DNA of 64,000 bases, from positions 4,269,525-4,333,524 of the forward strand of contig NC_037593.1 in the NCBI RefSeq assembly GCF_003073045.1, read 5' to 3'. Position 1 is the first letter of the stretch; each line of letters starts with the position of its first letter. This document shows, in pieces, positions 8,901 through 63,761 of this stretch. The position numbers and the translations under genes were made by a program. The notes beneath the pieces were generated by a model that was given only the letters and a program-made list of their open reading frames with translations, ran no database searches and was not told the DNA's origin. This stretch comes from Pomacea canaliculata. Lineage: Eukaryota > Mollusca > Gastropoda > Architaenioglossa > Ampullariidae.

Positions 8901-9371
8901 TTTTTATTAGGGTATGTTTTTCTTTACATATTTAGTTCTGCATGTGACATAGATTTGTGGATGTCAGTTGTGGTAGTAGAAATGGCCATGATGATTAAGA
9001 ATGCTTTATTAGAATGTAAAACATGTAGCAAAATATTAGAATGCATTTTCCTGCTCGGGTTACCCTTTAAATGGGGACTCACCCTCAGAAGACTGAAAGA
9101 TTTCGTCGGGATGCAAGACCCACCAGTTGACTGGCTGCACGACGTGAGTAGTTCTCAGCACTAGGGTACCTATCCAGACCACGTATGGGATCCACGAAGG
9201 AAAGAATAAAGAATTTCTCATTTCCGCCGTAGTGTCGCCTGCCACTGGCCTGTCGTTGTTCTGCCAGTGTAAAGGAGTTTTTACACCGCAGTCAGCAAAG
9301 TGTAGCTCTTCAGCTGCGGGAGGTGAGTGGTTCTTGCGACGTTTGTGTGATAAACGACAGCGTCCTCCCAT
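5929..9371 (-). CDS. PIGZ: GPI mannosyltransferase 4-like, copy B (frame-broken)
   Basis: Second PIGZ/SMP3-type GT22 mannosyltransferase, predicted to act on GPI anchors in the ER. Exons: 9371-9083, 8464-8259, 7889-5929. Intron positions and phases (1 and 0) equal those of copy A. Exon 1 ends WWVLHPDEIFQSSE. Exon 2 reads VAHTEVYGFGFRAYEF and is intact. Exon 3 carries FRFYGDIVVTPINWAKFN and the GT22 motif GHKEVRF. Frame breaks: near 7744, where one more C restores THPLVNSFLAP; between about 7550 and 7620, in the variable loop; and near 6522, just before HRDVPILTFL. The C-terminus has an extra TPR-like helical hairpin at about 6120-5980 (YEGDVLFRFQKFRLAAERY). ATG 9371 fits the exon 1 frame. Copy B is better preserved than copy A. 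Whether it makes a protein depends on whether the indels are real. Confidence 0.78.
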
Positions 9372-9722
9372 GACTCCTTAAACAACAACCGCGCACACAC
9401 ACACAGAGCATAGCAATCAGATACACGTGACAGTTTGTAGAGTAGGAGACTGCATTAACAAATGCGCTTTGGGGGAAAAAATATTATATAAAGTGGAAGG
9501 TTAATGCGAGACTTACAGCACCACACTTAAAATGTCGACAAGTAATGAGAGTTGGAGCTAGCGGGGTGCATCAAAGCTGCTTAACCGGTTGCGTCAAATG
9601 CAAGATTAAATACACATTATGGAGCCACCCGCCAACAAGCGGCATGCCTCCTCCATACAAAATTTAATTCATAGCAAAACAAACAATAATCCAGAAAAAA
9701 AGATAAAAAAAGCTGAGACCAC

Positions 9723-37039: not shown

Positions 37040-38310
37040 ATTTCACAGGAAGTGTATAAGGTATTCAGAGCGCTTGTATTATAAGTAGCTCAAGGTCATC
37101 TTGCTTGTGCAGCTTTGAGTCTGTGACTTCTGCAGTGTTTTGCATACTGTAATGAAAATTCTGTAGCGTCACAAAACATGACGGTCGCTATCCGTTCCAC
37201 ACAGTTGCTTTCATAATCCTTGCAAACTTTTTAAGAAATGCTGTCTGAAAGTGTGTGTTGGAGCTGTCATTATTGTAGGCTTATAGCTTGAAACCTGAAC
37301 ACTTGCTGATCCTATGAACATATTTTGAAGTGCTGGGGAGAGTTTTGAATATCTTAAAGAGGTGAGCTCTGACATAGTGCAAGGAGTGTGGAGGAAGGGA
37401 GATAATCAGGAGCACATAGATGGAGACATGGCAGTCCACTTTGTAACACCAGGGCCAATGAAGAAAAACTGGGGATGGGGAGGGGGTGATGTGATTAGTC
37501 TTAGGTGCCTCCAGCACCAGACGCGCTTTCTGAATGCATTGTGGAGTGTGGCAGTGAAAAGGGAGTTGAGCATGAGAAATGGCGATAACTACTCAGCAAT
37601 AGATGATGATGAGGCATTGGAGAGAAGTTCTTACCAAAAAAAGGAGAGGTGGGGCTGTGCTGCATGGAAAGGGTGGATTCCTTAAGGATACCAGATGATA
37701 AGGAAATTGTGGTGCCAGACAGAGGCTACAGGAACAGCTAGTATAAAGGTGCCTCAGTTTTGTCAGGGTTCAGCTTGAATTTAGTTTTTCTGTTCTGGAT
37801 GTCAGAATAGTAGTTTGATGGAGGAGAGCTATCAATTTTTTTCACTGGATAGTTAGCATATGCTTGAGTTTCATTGGCTGAGGTCATGGCATTTGATGAC
37901 CAACGATGTACTCCCTGGTAAAGATTGTAGAGGACATAATCCTGGAAAACACATGGAGGACTGGAAAAAAGGGTGGGAAAAACAGGAAGCAATAATGACA
38001 GCGTGAGGTCAGTCACAGAAGTAGCCCAGAAACCAGAAAAGATGTATTGAATACCTGAAAAATGGAAGAGCGTTGATTGACCAGACTTCATGGTCAAGAG
38101 GATCAAACATGAAAGACAAGGAGCATAAGCACTGAAACCAGACCATTGTCAGTGGCACAGAAGAGAGCTGTGCTAAGAAGACGGTAGGCTGATTGATGTA
38201 GAGGTAGAAGATAATGGCATGTATTCTGCAGTAAAGCATGTCAGAGATGACCAGGAGAAGATAGGGAATGGGGGAGATGGGAAAAAACCCAGTGTCAAGC
38301 TGAGACTACA
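37040..38310 (-). mobile_element. Decayed L2-like LINE fragment (reverse transcriptase part)
   Basis: The minus strand shows reverse transcriptase pieces in the usual order: SFMFDPLDHEVWSINAL near 38120 (family DLSAAFDTVDH), NETQAYANY near 37870 (family ADDTQLY), and NRKTKFKLNPDKTEA near 37760 (family NKLKLNDDKTEA). A sequence like an L2-type 3' tail lies near 37060. Many stops and frame changes make it an old, dead copy. Confidence 0.75.
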
Positions 38311-47818: not shown

Positions 47819-48726
<908 letters not shown>

Positions 48727-50046
48727 ATGTTTTCGAGCCCTAGATTAGTCCATTTTTTAAGTCGGCAGATCCGAAACAGATGTATCTCATCCAAGGTATA
48801 GTTCCAGTTCATATATTTCAGACATGATTGTTTAAAATAGTTTTGTCTTTTTGCTGAACAAAGACACAGAGAACAATTTTGTACGTGTTCATGATCAGAA
48901 CATTCTGATGAGAGAGATCTTGTTCTCTGCCGTTTTGCAGGTTCCGGACAGACCAACCTGGATAACAGTAAACCACGACAGACTTCCACAGGTCATTGAT
49001 TAATTTAATAATTGAATAATTTTTAAATACAAGATTGGCTGTATCACGGCGATTGAAGTTGCTGGCACATCATAACCAAAAATATAACAACAAACTGTAT
49101 GTGGCGTTACTTTGAATTTTGTCTACTTTATAAATTAAAATAGAAATTATCACTCTTCCTTTTCGAAGAGTTCATATTTTGAGACAGATTTATTTTACTT
49201 GATAAGTATGCGTATTGTAATCTGTTTGAATTTTTGTATAGTGTCGTATATTATTACATATTTCGTTCTTTTTTTCTTGACTAATAATCCTATTTTTTGT
49301 CAGGTGGAGGAAATAAGCAGAGAGCTAGTAGATCATTTAGAGAGGCTTTCACTGGTAGAATTCAGCAATGAAGAGGGATTAAAAAGACTATCAAGTGCCA
49401 TAAAATCTGCTAACCAGCTCTACATGGTGAACACTGATGATGTAGAACCATTGGATACTGTGCTAGAAAACAGGTATAGTTGTTAGCTATAGTGTTAATT
49501 ATTTAAAAACACAAAAATTATTTGTTCTTATATACTGTTGCATTTGAACCTTTCCATCCATGTTGACAGCTGATAACCACATTATTTTACAAGCAAATTC
49601 ACAACACATTTGTCAAAGCATTTATTATTTCTCTTCTAATTTATTTCCTTTTTTTTATATTTCAGAACATTGTTTCTTCGTAAAGATGAAATCACCGAGG
49701 GGGGTTGTAGGGATGCAATACTTTCAAATGCATGCAGAACAGAAGAAGAATACTTTGTAGCTCCACCAGGTATACTACTAATGTACCATATTTTGTAAAT
49801 ATATAAACGAAAGTTTATGCTTTAGAGCGGAAAGGGTTATCTCCCTTTAAGAGACTATCGCCATTGCAAATTTTAATGGCATTAAGAAATCATTATTTTG
49901 AATTAAGTTTTCAAGGTTGATCTTAAAGCAAATGTTGCATACTATTGATTAAATATCTATCCACATTTTAAAACAAGATTTAAAATTTGACAGGAAACAT
50001 ACCTTTAAAACAGGAAGACAAGGCGTACAAGGAGAAACTGAAGTAA
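48727..50046 (+). CDS. GATC: Glutamyl-tRNA(Gln) amidotransferase subunit C, mitochondrial
   Basis: GatC is the small scaffold subunit of the mitochondrial GatCAB complex, which turns Glu-tRNA(Gln) into Gln-tRNA(Gln). Five exons: 48727-48795, 48941-48991, 49304-49473, 49666-49769, 49994-50046; 447 nt, 148 residues (human 136). Exon 1 is a basic presequence (MFSSPRLVHFLSRQIRNRC). The family core is VDHLERLSLVEF, then DDVEPLDTVLENR (human DGVEPMESVLEDR) and EEEYFVAPPGNIPL. Phases and stops agree. ATG 48727 is the only one giving a targeting peptide in frame. It lies tail to tail with SRSF1/9, as human GATC does with SRSF9. Confidence 0.95.
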
Positions 50047-51249
50047 ACAATTGCGGGGAGAAAGGCACTTACAAGAAGAATTTTGTCTTTCACAGAAATC
50101 TTTTAACGAGGAGAAATCGACGCATTGCTTGCTTCAGTGTTTGCAATAAAAATTATCTGTGTATTGAGCTATTTAGTTTGACAAATCTTGTTTTATTTTT
50201 ATGGTTGTATGTGTAACCAGTCAAACATGTTATAGCCTTTATTGAAATAGACTTCCATGACCCTCCGTCAGTAGATCAAAAGCATATCTCACGTGCTATG
50301 CCACTCGGGTATGGTTCTCGTACCGTAGCCGAGTCCGGCAGGTGAGTAAATTGAACACCTGAGAAAAGAAGCAGGGAGATGGCTATCTAGACCGCTACCT
50401 GTGCCGAACCCTCAGGAACATTATTTTAAAAACTAACACAGATGAAATACCTAACATAGGAAAGGAAAATGCAAAGAGGAAGACGTAAATTCAGGTCTAA
50501 AATCTCTGTCTCTTTGGAGATTTATCTGTCAGCGTTCCTCGTGGACGCCTGTTCATGTTCTTCACAGGAAGTGTACCTGGCACCTCCCTTTTCTCTCTCT
50601 TTCCACGATCTGGATATCTGTACATTTGCTAATTTCTATGATAGGTATTCTCTTTTCCCGGTAAATTCTGATAATTCAATGGAGGCATCTCTAAGCTTCC
50701 GATTTTTAGTTCTCCTGCTTCTGAGTTCTCACTGGAAAATGCGCTTTCCCTATTCAATTACGAAAATCACAAGCTTTTGTGCTCACTTGTGAGTGTTACA
50801 ACATCACGATTGTCTCATTCATCCTGTCCAATGTACGAATCACTTTTAAGGTTTGATTGCAACTCGATTTTAATTTTGGTAGCAAAGATGCAATCTTTTT
50901 CTATATTATCTCACCATTCTCACATTGGGTCATATTGTCTACAATTAGCTCCTGTGCTTAAGCGTTTTCTCTTTGCGTTCTGAGCAAATCCAACGATAAA
51001 CATTAATGTTTTTTACCTGAACATTTTACTGCGGACTGATAGATTGTGACAGCTGGTGTTCACAAATCTTTTTTTATTTTGAGGAATGTAAAGCCTTAAA
51101 ACTGTCATGGTGTATTCGGTCTTGTATGGTGTATGCAGTCTTCCAATTAGCATGGACAGGCACAAAAAGTAAAGCAGTGAAGTATGGATACTGTAAACAG
51201 TTGGAGCCATACTTGATGGTTAACTTAAGGATTACAAGGGAGTTGAGGC

Positions 51250-52860
51250 TAGTATTTCAGGAATAGTACTTTCTGAACAGATATCTTCTCAGAGAGCGTT
51301 CGAATGTTGGCTGTGAGTCTGAGTGGTGAATGTCATGTGGAAGATAGTTCCACTGCTTAGCAAAGAGGGAGGACATCCGTTGTCTGTGACTGTCTTTGTG
51401 GGAGGGAGGGAGGGATAGAATACGCAAGTCTGATGAGGAGCGAAGGTTTTGGGCAGAGGAGTGGAAAGACAAGATTTCAGAAAAGTACTTTGGGGTGGGG
51501 GAGGAACTTTCAAAGAATTCATAGCATACTGTTGAGAGCTTGTAGTCTATTCTGGCTTTAACTGGTCAATGAAGAGAGTGAAGTGGTGCGACCCGTCCAG
51601 ATGTGAGACACCAAAAACGAGACAAGCAGCTGAGTTCAGGACTTTCTGAAGCTTATTAATGAGGTGGAAAGCCAGCAAGAAGAGAGTTGCAGTAGTCTAG
51701 TTCAGACAACAAATAAGCAGATGAGAAATTTGGTGGTTGACATGGACAGAGTTTGACAAAAGGAACTGATCTTCTGGAGCTAATAGTATGCAGGACAAAT
51801 GTGAGAAACATGTTTATCACCCTTGTCTCTACAAGTGACCTAAGTTACGTAAGCAACATTAGCATAGCCTACTCGAATAGAGACAGGCAGTGAAGGGTAA
51901 ACTCTGGCTCTCCTCTTCAAAGGAAAAAAGCTTATACTTTATCATCATTTAGTTTTAACTTGTCGTGGATCATCCATTGCCTAATATTAGAAATACAGTC
52001 TTGGATAATAGTGTTCATGGTGTAGCCGACTGGTGGGGTTTGTGGTCAACAAAAACGTCCAGCACTCAAACAAAAGCAGGAACAGTCAGCAGGTGTGCGA
52101 CCCTTTATTACACAGGCTAGTACAATGGCCACGGCTGCGTCACATCGCCAGCCTGTCCCCTGTCACATGTGCTCGCTCCCCGATCTGCCGGTGTCTCTTC
52201 TTTCGTTTCGTCTTAGCTCTGCCCTTATATACCTCTGGGATGGGGTAAACTTTGTGATCCTCCAACATGGCCGGGCAGTAACGAACTTCAGCCCTAGCCA
52301 ATCACTGCCGAATATACTCTCTCGCCATGCCTCAGCAGATCCGCCAACAACAATCAATCATCCGTCGGCCCCGCCAAAACTAACGAGAAGAACAGTTGAG
52401 TGTTGTCAGCATAATATTGATCAGATAGAGAGATTAAATTAAATCATATCATATATGATAAAGAGGATGGCGGGGGTGTTGGGTTGTGTATGTGCTCCTG
52501 AGCAGACTGGTTGAGACATGCAGCAATCCACCATAACCAAGTCCAATCTATGACTGAAACCAGTCGAGTGGGGAGCCTGAGATGCCATAGAGTACTGAGT
52601 CTTTGAATAAGAGTAATGTGATCTATAGGCAGCAGGCAGGTATAACATGGTGAGAAATGAGATGTCACCTCTATCCAGCGCAATCTCAGTGCTGTGAGAA
52701 GGGCAGACTGATAAATCAAGTTTTCAGAGTTAGGATAAAAGTTGCTCAAGAACCACTTTCTTGAGGATATGGGGGAAAAGACTAGAGAGTAAACATGCAC
52801 ATTTTTGTCAGGTAGCCCCAACATTTTGACGATGAGAAATACTTAAGGTAATTTTATGCT
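51250..52860 (-). mobile_element. Decayed L2-like LINE, split by an LTR
   Basis: The minus strand carries the second half of a LINE ORF2: LLPIDHITLIQRLSTLW near 52660, YADNTQ near 52405-52420, SNIRQWMIHDKLKLNDDK near 51960, WPVKARIDYKLSTVCYEF near 51545, and the C-terminal region FAKQWNYLPHDI near 51345 (family AAPRLWNSLPLHI), ending about 51257. Many stops and frame changes mean it is dead. It is interrupted at 52012-52394 by a solo LTR. Confidence 0.85.
52012..52394 (-). mobile_element. Solo LTR (LTR retrotransposon fossil)
   Basis: About 375-383 bp inserted in a LINE. The ends are inverted (TGTTC/GAACA; a TGTAG start at 52021 is an alternative left border). On the minus strand a TATATAAG box lies near 52230 and an AATAAA signal at 52109-52104, in the order of U3, R and U5. 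The short direct repeat AGTGTT at 52010-52015 and 52399-52404 may be the target duplication, though it does not meet the ends exactly. No internal region remains. It is younger than the LINE it sits in. Family not assigned. Confidence 0.75.
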
Positions 52861-52997
52861 TAGTGCCAAAAGAAAACACACCTCATCAGTCATTCAAACA
52901 GTGTAAAATCCAGTAAAAATTAAAATCATTTTTATTTCCTGAAATGAAGGACAAATAAATGTCAATCTAAATGGAACAAGAATACCAAGACACTTAC

Positions 52998-53273
52998 CAG
53001 AAATCCACATTTCCCATGTGTCTCCTATTCTTGTCCCATGAAAATCCAGGCAAGAATTTCCTCCTCTTTTCCTATGTAAGCAGACATTCCCTCTCTGATC
53101 CAATCCCATGCAATCCAGGACTAAAATCTGCTCCCTTGTTTGCAGAATTTTGTATTCCAATCCATGACACCCCAAGAATCCAAAGTAGGAAAGAAGATCC
53201 CGTTTTTGATTTCCATGATCCATTGCACAGTAAGGAAAAGCTAGAGAGGCTCCATTACAATCCTTCTTGAAAT
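52998..53273 (-). ncRNA. Candidate GGA-rich non-coding exon 3 downstream of SRSF1/9
   Basis: About 20 GGA triplets on the minus strand in 276 nt. The 3' border is TTTCTG/GTAAGTG, a strong donor; a 59-bp candidate intron ending CATTTCAG follows (52997-52939). The acceptor at CTCAG is weak and an alternative TCTCTAG lies about 35 nt inside. An open frame exists but resembles no known protein. Its status as an exon is inferred. Confidence 0.4.
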
Positions 53274-53492
53274 CTGAGCTTCACCCTAGTTATGTTAAGG
53301 AAATTAGTGATCCTGAATTATTTTTAATAAATGTTTTCAGGGAATTATTGAAAACGTAAAAAAAAAAAAAATATATATATATAAAGTGAACAGAAAAGCA
53401 TGAACAAGAACTGTTGGACTTCTGAAGAACAGAAAACCTACAAAAAGAATGGAAGGGAATGCATGTTTGAGAATCTGAACTATTTAGCTAAC

Positions 53493-54085
53493 CTCTAGAT
53501 TTCAAAACTTGCCAACCATATCCAAATGCTTGTTCATGCTCCAGTCTGCAATGTTCAACGCACCAAGGTCCAAAATCACCAACCACTCCTTCACTTCCAA
53601 TCGAAGGCACACTGGCTTGAAAGTGTCTAATTCCATTAACTTTTTTTCGGAGGGGAGGGGGCCAGTTTATAGGTTTCCAGAAATCCTGTTTCAAGAATGA
53701 ATTCCATTAGATCCACGAAACTGCTTTGCATAGTCCCGGAATTTCCTTCATTAAAATACTAGGAATAATCTTCATGATTCAAATTGTGAATTGATTTGGG
53801 AAATGTAGCCAAAATAAGGTTCATCCAATTTTTTTCCATAAATGTGCAATGGATCCATACTTAAAAGGAAAATATTTTAATCCCTGGTGGAATGGTCCAA
53901 GTGATCCCCTCCTGAAGAAGATGATTCCTTGCCCAGCCATGCATAGTGATATCCCCTTTTAAAGACAGGATTCTCCAATTTTCCATTTCAGGAGAGAAAT
54001 CCATGACAAAGGACGCACGAGTTCCTACAGTATTGCAATGCTTTTCCAGACCTCCCAATTATCCAAAAGCTTTGCTTTGTTGTAA
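53493..54085 (-). ncRNA. Candidate GGA-rich non-coding exon 2 downstream of SRSF1/9
   Basis: 593 nt with about 26 GGA triplets on the minus strand. The acceptor is excellent (pyrimidine-rich run ending GTTTGTTCAG/TTACAAC); the donor is GAG/GTTAGC. Reading frames are short and unlike known proteins. The flanking intervals hold very few GGA triplets (about 4 in the 770 nt before it, 1 in the 219 nt after it). Inferred exon. Confidence 0.45.
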
Positions 54086-54855
54086 CTGAACAAACGAGAA
54101 AACCAAATAAAAAATATTAGATGTGCATTCTCAAAAATTGACAATTCATAAGATGAAACAAAAATTCACAAAAGGTTCCTCTGCTATCTTGCCCAACGCT
54201 CTTCAGGAAGTTGTGACAAATGCTCTATTACACATGCAAGAAAGTTGTACAGCACTTCAGGTATGTTCACACAACCCACCCTCGAAATAGCCAAAATATA
54301 ACTTGTATTTTTTAATTTTATGGACCCATGCATAACCTTGTTTTAGTCAAGAGGTTTGAGAAGAAATGACTTCAGTGTTTCACCAAACAATACAATCAGC
54401 TGAACATGCACCAATAACAAACAGATGCATCTACTTCTGCCCACCAAAATCAAGGGAATAAAAGAAATTCAACAATCTCCGTGCACTTAAAATATGCCAA
54501 TCCCTGAATACCTGATTACATACCACAGCAATTGAATTCAAGGAGGAGCAGAGGGATCAAAGATACAAATATAATACTTGCTACTGATACAATGTCAAAG
54601 TGCCTCTGAGCAATGCTGCATTTCAATTTTGCTTTAAAAAAATGCACAATTTGCCAATGCAATGCATCAGGTCAAATTTGTCGACTTACTGTTTCAAATA
54701 AACTGGGACTGAGTCTGCAGCTAAGCTTTCCCTTTGAAATTTTTTTTTAGTATGTTCACTTTTGGGAGAACTGACATTTTAATGACTTCTGTACATATCT
54801 CTCTGGACGTTTTCACATGTTCACGTTGAACCATTCAAGTGATGCACTAAATTAC

Positions 54856-55017
54856 CATTTGGCCAACTGTGATCAGCCAGCCATTCCTTCCTCTGGTCCC
54901 AGATGGACGCTTTACTCAGTCCAAAATCCTGAGAAGACAATATCCTCCCATCGAGTTCCTTCCTCCTCATCAAATCCTTATCTTTAAATCCATCAGCACG
55001 TTCCTACTCGAACGCAT
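54856..55017 (-). ncRNA. Candidate GGA-rich non-coding exon 1 downstream of SRSF1/9
   Basis: 162 nt with about 13 GGA triplets on the minus strand. The acceptor is CTGATTTTCCAG/ATGCG and the donor CCAAATG/GTAATT. All three frames contain stops, as expected for a poison exon or a 3' UTR exon. It lies about 250 nt beyond the SRSF1/9 stop codon. Inferred exon. Confidence 0.45.
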
Positions 55018-55263
55018 CTGGAAAATCAGATGTGAGCTTAGATTTGACAAAGTAATATTAAAAATAGTCTACAATCCACCTACAATCCGCATTATTCCTA
55101 AGTATTTTAACAAAAAAGGCTGATTCTGAAGTTACAGGTATTGTCTCTATGTCAGAACAACGATTTCTGGTCATTGCAGAAAGTCTTTATGTAGCATAAA
55201 ATTTGAAGGGGTCAGGGTAAACAGGAGTGTAGTGGTGACTGACATGTCAGATGACCATTTGAC

Positions 55264-56833
55264 TTAGTATGGTGAACGTGACCGCGAAAATGACTGAGAA
55301 CGAGATCGCATTGGGGAGTATCTTGGGCTACCCCTAGAGCGTTTCTGTGACGCACTGCGGCTTCTGGATCGAGACCTTCCTCTGGAGTCCTCTTTCACTC
55401 TGATGTAGGATACATCACCCTAAAAACAAAGACCCATGACAACTTTTAGTCCCATTCAAAACAGCACAACAAATGCAGATTTTGTTCAGTTTAAAAAAGT
55501 AGGAAGTAGCTACATAGCATATGCATTTTAACAGTTTTATTAAAATTTGTAAAATAAACAAAAAATGACCACGCGCAACAGAAAAGTCATTACCTCATGT
55601 GAACGGAATTTCGTGTCGTCAAGCTTTCGTACTGCATACTTCATGTCTTCTCGCCTTAGAAATTCCACCACTCCTGTACCATCCTTAAAGACATCAGCAT
55701 AGCAGACATCGCCAGCCTCTCTCATGTGGTCCTTTAAATCTTGCCAACTGCCAGTAGGAGGTAGGCCTGCAAGCACATGGGGAAAATGTTTTAATCTAAA
55801 ATGGAATGCTCATCAAAATTCTATTAATGCAATGAAATAGGTGGTGTTGGTAAATGTCTTACATGCTGAAAGGAAGCGATTTAAGAAAATTGTGCAACAA
55901 ATCTATCCATATGTCACAGATTTTTAATCGATTTGCCTGTTAGTTCATAATGCATTTCTTGGCATGGGCATCTGAATAGGTGAAAAAATAACTTCCTTCA
56001 CAAATAAGCTAAAAAGGTATACTGACCTGAAACAAGAACTCTATTTTCAGACCTCCTGGATGGTGGACCTCCTCGACCACCTCGGCCTCCTCGAAAACGG
56101 CTCATTCCACTACCACGAGGAAACTCTACCCGTAATGTGTAGCCATCATAGTTGTAACCATCTCTCTGACGAACTGCATCTTCCGCATCCCTTTCAAAGT
56201 ACAGAAATTTTCGCTTACAATAAGCAACAAAAAGTTCACCGGCACATGTGATGTTAGAAGCTATTGGTGTTTACTTTTTGAATTAAAAATTACTTTTGTT
56301 ATCAGTGATACATGTAAAAGAAGTGCATACAAAATATCAACGGTACACGAGTTATACAATGTTCCTTATTACAGTAGGAAAATCCATGCTTTTCTGACAC
56401 CTAAGTCTAGGAAGATTATAAACTGTATGTTTCATTTGGCGAAGAAATAATATTTCAAAAGACCAACTAGCTTCACTCAAATATTTTACCATTCCAACGA
56501 ACGTTTCAAACACGTTACGATCACATTAAAAAGATTAGATCCATGTGGACAAGTACCGCCCTAAAAAAAAAGTCAAGTAGCACAATAAGCTATTCTAAAC
56601 GTTAACAGAGCAGTAGATTGCTTTATTTTATCACAACAATAATTAGATCTTCCGATTCAGCTTTGGCCTTACCTGGGATCCTCGAACTCAACGAATGCAA
56701 ATGGTGGTCCTTTTCGATTCTTCAAATCGACAAATACAATCTTTCCGAATCTGTAAAAGAGATCTTCGATATCCCTGGTTCTAATATCTGGAGGCAAATT
56801 ACCAACATATACTCTGCTGTCGTTGCGTGCCAT
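55264..56833 (-). CDS. SRSF1: Serine/arginine-rich splicing factor, SRSF1/SRSF9 type
   Basis: SR protein that binds exonic enhancers and steers splice-site choice. Four exons: 56833-56673, 56190-56027, 55766-55594, 55419-55264; 654 nt, 217 residues. RRM1: RNP2 RVYVGNLP (7-14) and RNP1 [10 protein letters not shown] (41-50). A glycine/arginine linker ([11 protein letters not shown]) follows. The second, pseudo-RRM carries the invariant SWQDLKD (115-121), which contacts GGA in RNA. A short RS tail ends FSRSRSPY. Human SRSF1 has 248 residues and SRSF9 221; the short RS tail and the GATC neighbour resemble SRSF9, so this is probably the pre-duplication gene. Start ATG 56833 ([11 protein letters not shown]). 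It lies tail to tail with GATC. Confidence 0.95.
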
Positions 56834-57399
56834 TGCTTACTAAAGATAGTGTAGGCCAAAAAGAAGAAACAAACGACGATGGCGACTTCTCCGACTAAAT
56901 ATGGCGACGTTACTGCTCGCACTTTTTCTCAAGAATGTATCCTTGAGCCTAGTAAAAATCAAACCTTTATATAAAATATTGTAGCATTTAAAAATGTAAG
57001 AATCAAACTTTATTACATCGTCTAAAATTGAGTGTAGAAGATATTTTGTAAACAAGTATTTCTATAAATTTTGTTTAACTTATGGTACTTTATTGCGGAG
57101 GTGAATGTTGCTAGGGTTGATAAAAGACTTGGAAAGCGTTCCCTCATGGCCGCCTACTTCCTTTTTACCTTGACCTTGAATCACGTCTCGTTTTTAATCA
57201 AACGATTTCTCTCAGAAAGTCCAAAATTAAAACAGTGTGATAAAGGCGTGGAATACCTAGATGATATATATATATGACAACAAAACGAAACAGTTTTATG
57301 CAAATCAGAATATTTATTCTGAAAACGCACTTCTTCCATAAACATTACTCCTAAAAACCTTTCCCATAATGCTTTAGTCCTTTCTCACACCCTTCCTCT

Positions 57400-57640
57400 T
57401 GCATTCATGCTACTCTCAGCTCGTGTTCTTGTTCTTTGGTTCTTATTTGTGCTTTCTGTACTTTATTTTATTCTTTGTTTAGTACGGTTGTGTATTCTTT
57501 TATAGTTCATGTGCTATTTGTTTATTTTCATGTCCCTCGTATCCTGTCCATGTTTCCTTCGATCTTGTTCTTCAGCGCTAAGAGCATGCTTAGGAGTGTG
57601 AATATGCGCTTTATAAATTTTGCATTTTTATTATGTTTCA
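57400..57640 (+). repeat. LINE 3'-end-like fragment
   Basis: T-rich 3' UTR-like sequence followed by CAGCGCTAAGAGCATGCTTA and GCGCTTTATAAATTTTGC, resembling the tail of L2-type elements in invertebrates. By-eye call. Confidence 0.4.

Positions 57641-59578: not shown

Positions 59579-63761
<4,183 letters not shown>

Follow-up and report, generated by a model that had tools for sequence, protein, structure and literature searches.

GGA-packed candidate exons behind the stop of the Pomacea canaliculata SRSF1/9 gene and a possible self-limiting splicing switch

Unproductive splicing of SR genes and the snail SRSF1/9 locus

SR protein genes have come repeatedly under unproductive splicing, and most of the human events are reported to have arisen independently (PMC4379411). 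In mammals, SRSF1 and SRSF2 reportedly promote the removal of introns from the 3' UTRs of their own transcripts, and the products are targets of nonsense-mediated decay (NMD) (PMC6884704), and the productive form of SRSF1, isoform 1, is described as the one in which the 3' UTR intron is retained (PMC9262138). For SRSF3-7, SRSF9 and SRSF10, stop-bearing poison cassette exons leading to NMD have been described (PMC6884704), and for the poison exon of TRA2B the density of binding sites is reported to go with the sensitivity to the TRA2B protein (PMC11791180). Concerning the sites themselves, an earlier note on the DNA analyzed here had taken GGA as the triplet bound by SRSF1, in line with a review that reports GGA binding for both SRSF1 and SRSF9 and gives as motifs CUGGAUU and GGAGGA for SRSF9 and GGAGGA for SRSF1 (PMC9022966).

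Here we compare with these systems the SRSF1/9 gene of the snail Pomacea canaliculata, as found in a window of 64,000 nucleotides of contig NC_037593.1 (the whole stretch of DNA analyzed, to whose numbering all positions refer). The snail gene belongs to the same family as mammalian SRSF1 and SRSF2, and its predicted splicing would follow the same logic, in which splicing behind the stop is unproductive and retention is productive (PMC6884704, PMC9262138); it may differ from mammalian SRSF1 in the predicted layout of its flank, with three blocks rich in GGA and then a short terminal exon. TRA2B is alike in that its protein acts on a non-coding exon of its own transcript (PMC11791180), a regulation which we infer for the snail, but there it is a poison exon with GAA/AGAA-type sites and a different protein. 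The poison cassettes of other SR genes are stop-bearing alternative exons that trigger NMD, as is predicted for the snail blocks, whereas the latter lie behind the stop and not between coding exons. Dense GGA-type sites for SRSF1 and SRSF9 are also reported in the GGAAU repeats of HSATIII, associated with nuclear stress bodies (PMC9022966); that, however, is a repeat RNA acting in trans, while the snail blocks are not tandem repeats. The novelty attributed to the arrangement in the earlier note holds in part, since 3' UTR self-splicing is known for mammalian SRSF1 and SRSF2 (PMC6884704), whereas among the matches listed, all from open-licence literature, none reports splicing in the 3' UTR of a mollusc SRSF1/9 gene. 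The kind of control is already known, and what is new, among those matches, is a dense multi-exon GGA array in a mollusc SRSF1/9 gene.

The SRSF1/9 coding region occupies 55264..56833 of the minus strand in four exons (56833-56673, 56190-56027, 55766-55594 and 55419-55264), whose spliced frame of 654 nt yields a protein of 217 aa with two RRMs, a short RS tail and a SWQDLKD pseudo-RRM, which places it among the candidates for SRSF1-type control. Pfam matches RRM_1 in two stretches (E 4.2e-35), and the closest solved relative is the SRSF1 chain 7abg_A6 (phmmer, E 6.7e-93), in which SWQDLKD is identical. Spliced frame, domain match and chain match together confirm the previous identification of the gene as SRSF1/9 with intact SWQDLKD. 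The locus is the sole strong match to the protein in the P. canaliculata genome: a search retrieves 9 matches, 4 of which are the exons of the locus itself, while identity in the remaining 5 is 34-51%. In the viral collection, contig L042 (117,684 bases) encodes at 9307-9600 an RRM stretch 34% identical to the SRSF1/9 protein, one locus found in the viral_contigs scan.

Concerning the surroundings, upstream of SRSF1/9 the minus-strand stretch 59913-60479 gives a weak, sub-cut-off Sulfotransfer_1 match (E 0.0022) and overlaps a long GT microsatellite, and a GTT microsatellite is found at about 60585-60640. Between GATC and the SRSF1/9 flank, the minus strand harbors at 51257-51565 an open frame that we take to resemble the tail of a non-LTR reverse transcriptase, for which a Pfam search gave no match at E 0.1. 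TRIAP1 (48160-48342, minus, UPF0203 match), GATC (about 49304-50050, plus) and SRSF1/9 (minus) follow each other within 48160-56833 in the order of TRIAP1-GATC-SRSF9 on human chromosome 12, a snail/human microsynteny. The human order is reflected in the gene list of a 12q24.23q24.31 deletion, with COX6A1, TRIAP1, GATC and SRSF9 in sequence (PMC11867633), and in another human list with TRIAP1, GATC and SRSF9 (PMC11321361).

GGA clustering in the flank behind the stop

The minus-strand flank opens with the start of the 3' UTR (55018..55263), which shows a possible donor after 55244 (CAT/GTCAGT), a CATAAA at 55191 and no AATAAA. The first block, B1 (54856..55017, 162 nt), starts 247 nt behind the SRSF1/9 stop and is a candidate non-coding exon with 13 GGA and stops in all frames. 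It is followed by a candidate intron of 770 nt (54086..54855) with 4 GGA and ATTAAA at 54783 and 54316, by the candidate non-coding exon B2 (53493..54085, 593 nt) with 28 GGA and ATTAAA at 53881, and by a T-rich candidate intron (53286..53492) with a single GGA at 53313. The third candidate non-coding exon, B3 (52998..53285), holds 21 GGA between a weak acceptor at 53285 and a strong donor (CTG/GTAAGT), behind which lie a candidate intron of 59 nt without GGA (52939..52997) and a candidate short terminal exon with its poly(A) region (52880..52938), composed of acceptor 52938, AATAAA at 52936 and then a GT-rich stretch. This is the only AATAAA in 55330-52300 and it lies beyond B3, the ATTAAA and CATAAA variants coming earlier; the longest transcript likely ends at 52936, giving a very short terminal exon.

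The GGA counts put forward earlier needed only small corrections: those of B1 (13) and of the two intervals between blocks (4 in 770 nt and 1 in 219 nt) stand, while B2 has 28 and not 26, and the third block, taken as 53273-52998 (276 nt), has 21 and not 20. The blocks make up 51% of the region 55017-52998 and contain 62 of its 67 GGA, and the intervals, with T fractions of 0.35 and 0.46, are almost devoid of the triplet. When the region is dinucleotide-shuffled (n=1000), the blocks receive on average 21.2 GGA (SD 3.8, maximum 33) against the 62 observed, and when each block is shuffled separately the observed count is reached in 4 (B1), 0 (B2) and 0 (B3) of 1000 dinucleotide shuffles, so that the claim of a density above that of shuffled sequence is upheld. 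A two-state HMM on GGA starts, run over 56900-50200, yields the dense segments 55091-54874, 54074-53521 and 53274-52988, the first of which starts ahead of acceptor 55017 because two GGA (55088 and 55077) precede it. The HMM finds no GGA-dense run in the SRSF1/9 introns, where introns 1-3 hold 5, 2 and 1 GGA, and the coding exons carry 1.3-3.7 GGA per 100 nt, compared with 4.7-8.0 in the blocks.

Considering both strands of the 64-kb window, the densest spans of 160 nt are found in B3 (14) and then B1 (13), the densest span of 280 nt is B3 (21) and the densest of 590 nt is B2 (28). The plus-strand stretch 37381-37970, with 26 GGA in 590 nt, is second only to B2 at that size and is G-rich (207 G in 661 nt). 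As genomic background, 20 random 10-kb stretches of the same genome (200 kb) were scanned on both strands, giving 40 strand-loci: one reaches the B1 level of 13 GGA in 162 nt, none reaches the B3 level of 21 in 276 nt (maximum 15) and none the B2 level of 28 in 593 nt (maximum 23). On the gene strand of four RRM/SR-type loci, the maxima are 9 GGA in 162 nt, 13 in 276 nt and 22 in 593 nt; these controls comprise L029 (SRSF2-like), the RS-tailed L040 and L041, and L030, a weak control with an RRM match and no RS tail seen by the filter, the 3.2-kb loci L001-L008 and L031-L039 being left out. The GGA clustering is hence particular to the SRSF1/9 gene among the loci looked at; the blocks are a real, non-random feature, for which an autoregulatory role is plausible.

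GGA is also the most over-represented of the 64 triplets in the blocks (62 vs 34.8 expected, z 7.2), followed by CGT (7 vs 1.8 expected) and TGG (48 vs 33.0), while AGA (14 vs 23.3), GGG (18 vs 33.5) and TGA fall below expectation. It is 8.8-fold denser in the blocks than in the non-block parts of 55263-53274, and the log2 change between blocks and non-block flank is +3.14 for GGA, +0.68 for GAA and -0.37 for AGA. GAAGAA is absent from the blocks, with 37 occurrences on the whole strand. The two most enriched 6-mers of the blocks are GGATTT and TGGATT, and 3 of the 9 CTGGATT of the strand fall in the blocks and terminal region. These data support an enrichment specific to GGA, not to purine-rich sequence in general. 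RRM1 of SRSF1 is reported to prefer a cytosine at -4 or +6 of GGA (PMC7813835), a preference absent from the block GGA, where the C fraction is 0.16 at both positions. Local folding had no clear effect either, the openness of block GGA being 0.27, against 0.22 for other two-G/C triplets and 0.31 for the mean of the rest.

Splice sites at the block borders and the nature of the blocks

Splice sites were scored with a generic matrix of metazoan-type frequencies, not one trained on P. canaliculata, and are expressed as ranks over every AG or GT on the strand. On this scale the donors of the SRSF1/9 coding introns rank in the top 0.06%, 0.8% and 3.1%, the last and weakest of the three being the donor of coding exon 3 (55594, minus), and the acceptors in the top 17.9%, 0.3% and 2.3%. 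Block acceptors 55017 (top 4.0%) and 54085 (top 1.4%) lie within the range of the coding-intron acceptors, as donors 53493 (top 3.0%) and 52998 (top 0.4%) lie within that of the coding-intron donors, while donor 54856 (top 6.2%) and acceptor 53285 fall outside. The B3 acceptor is probably 53285, which outranks all others in the vicinity (top 22%), while 53273 scores poorly (top 59%). Acceptor 52938 (top 0.2%), absent from the earlier note, is located 59 nt behind the B3 donor and adjoins the AATAAA at 52936. A donor is also needed ahead of B1, and the best one in the 3' UTR is the weak 55244 (top 5.9%), 20 nt behind the stop. By score, then, consensus splice sites able to define 3' UTR introns behind the stop are present, with 55244, 54856 and 53285 being weak.

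The coincidence of block borders with splice signals, as proposed earlier, applies to 55017, 54856, 54085, 53493 and 52998 (top 0.4-6.2%) and fails at 53273 (top 59%), and the level to be expected by chance depends on the settings. In the border test used here, each segment runs from the first to the last GGA of a block, and the best acceptor in front and the best donor behind are taken within a set distance; the settings (B1 start at 55004, 35 nt) were chosen with the claim known, two GGA ahead of the acceptor being left out. At 35 nt the test picks 55017/54856 for B1, 54085/53493 for B2 and 53285/52998 for B3. In a first run, none of the 20,000 random placements made per strand attained their summed score, and a second run yielded 2 such placements among 20,000 on the minus strand and none among 20,000 on the plus strand. 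Across distances of 20, 35 and 50 nt on the minus strand, the score was reached by 159, 2 and 15 of 20,000 placements for the first-to-last-GGA segments and by 48, 151 and 638 of 20,000 for the HMM segments, the first setting being the most favourable of those tried. A rigid slide at 35 nt gives a match at 16 of 61,620 offsets, 13 of which deviate from the true position by no more than 6 nt, the other 3 being about 7.9 kb off. No setting tried brought the match between block borders and splice sites down to chance level, the frequency of equally good random placements ranging from about 1 in 10,000 to about 3 in 100.

Concerning coding potential, stops per frame amount to 3/5/1 in B1, 10/5/8 in B2 and 3/2/1 in B3 (53285-52998), which extends to B2 and B3 the stops in all frames noticed earlier for B1. 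Five block ORFs (three minus, two plus, with no minus-strand B1 ORF among them) gave no Pfam match at E 0.1, and on this ground and that of the stops we rejected protein-coding blocks. The GGA keep no strict frame (5/6/2 in B1, 6/13/9 in B2 and 4/9/8 in B3). A repeat or transposon was rejected as well, since the blocks contain no tandem repeat, nothing similar to them is found elsewhere in the 64-kb window or in L001-L030, and a whole-genome search with 52900-54100 (B2-B3) retrieves only itself, as a single copy. A structured RNA was discarded on the basis of an Rfam search of 50000-57500 with no match up to E 1. The evidence supports the view that the blocks look like non-coding exons.

A putative self-limiting switch and its meaning

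On balance, we think it probable that the blocks are non-coding exons of SRSF1/9 packed with the GGA sites of its own protein, whose inclusion at high protein levels would turn the mRNA into an NMD target and lower the output; transcription, splicing, binding, decay and feedback are all predicted from the sequence. The blocks would belong to the SRSF1/9 transcription unit, and their splice sites range from good to weak. At low protein levels, the pre-mRNA would stay unspliced behind the stop, or be cleaved early, and protein would be made, while abundant protein would coat the GGA blocks, leading to their recognition as exons and their inclusion. Entry into B1 could take place from a donor in the 3' UTR, such as 55244, or from coding exon 3 with exon 4 skipped. 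Coding exons 1-3 sum to 498 nt, so a junction from exon 3 to B1 stays in phase 0 and leads, at the 16th codon, to a stop that ends 114 nt before the B1 donor; in the form that uses donor 55244, the junctions lie 20, 182, 775 and 1063 nt behind the stop. By coordinate arithmetic, in both worked-out inclusion isoforms a stop is followed, at a distance of more than 55 nt, by exon junctions, and hence the inclusion mRNA would be an NMD target and the output would fall. It should be noted that the 55-nt rule is reported to fail for some 3' UTR introns in human cells (PMC13223760).

The same blocks may be read in other ways. They could be 3' UTR exons of SRSF1/9 that are constitutive or controlled by other factors, with GGA as a general exonic enhancer and no self-regulation. 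Purine-rich enhancers are read by many SR proteins, and weak sites such as 53285 and 54856 need enhancers under any regulator; AGA, however, is found 14 times where 23.3 are expected, none of the 37 GAAGAA of the strand falls in the blocks, and the coding exons, at 1.3-3.7 GGA per 100 nt, stay below the 4.7-8.0 of the blocks, all of which makes such a general role unlikely in our judgement. It is rather improbable that the whole flank is kept as a long 3' UTR, whose GGA arrays would be binding platforms (for translation, nuclear retention or sequestration) and not exons. The position of the flank's only AATAAA beyond B3 fits a retained flank, and sequestration of SRSF1 and SRSF9 by the GGAAU-rich RNA of HSATIII has been reported (PMC9022966), but better-than-chance splice sites are found near the block borders, and a platform does not need intervals that are almost GGA-free, with T fractions of 0.35 and 0.46.

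If the ATTAAA and CATAAA variants (e.g. 55191, 54783) ended the SRSF1/9 transcript early, the blocks could instead form a non-coding RNA gene of their own, oriented like SRSF1/9, an explanation to which we give the least credit of all: B1 begins only 247 nt behind the stop, no AATAAA lies between that stop and B3, and the triplet suits the neighbouring gene's own product. Nor does a compositional accident or a worn, functionless repeat remnant appear other than very improbable. Dense GGA does occur elsewhere, as in 37381-37970 of the plus strand (26 in 590 nt, though G-rich overall) and in the 1 of 40 random strand-loci that equals B1; it is the shuffles, the genome background for B2 and B3, the splice sites near the borders, the lack of a tandem repeat and the lack of a second copy of B2-B3 that speak against it.

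Returning to the self-limiting switch, a broader and more tentative proposal, which we regard as possible but doubtful, is that SRSF1/9, lying beside TRIAP1 and GATC as human SRSF9 does, works as a multi-exon sensor with about 62 GGA sites, representing an ancestral control if it is shared with other protostomes and a convergence otherwise. If the 3' UTR splicing were shared with other protostomes, vertebrate SRSF1 would have inherited the ancestral SRSF1/9 control and SRSF9 would have swapped it for a cassette exon; if not, the snail would present a striking case of convergence, assembled from the triplet of the protein itself. A gene of this kind, in which the presumed code (GGA for a protein that reads GGA) can be made out by eye and which is the only SRSF1/9 gene found in the snail genome, would make it possible to test whether the dose response depends on the number of sites, and whether 3' UTR control predates the divergence of SRSF1 and SRSF9.
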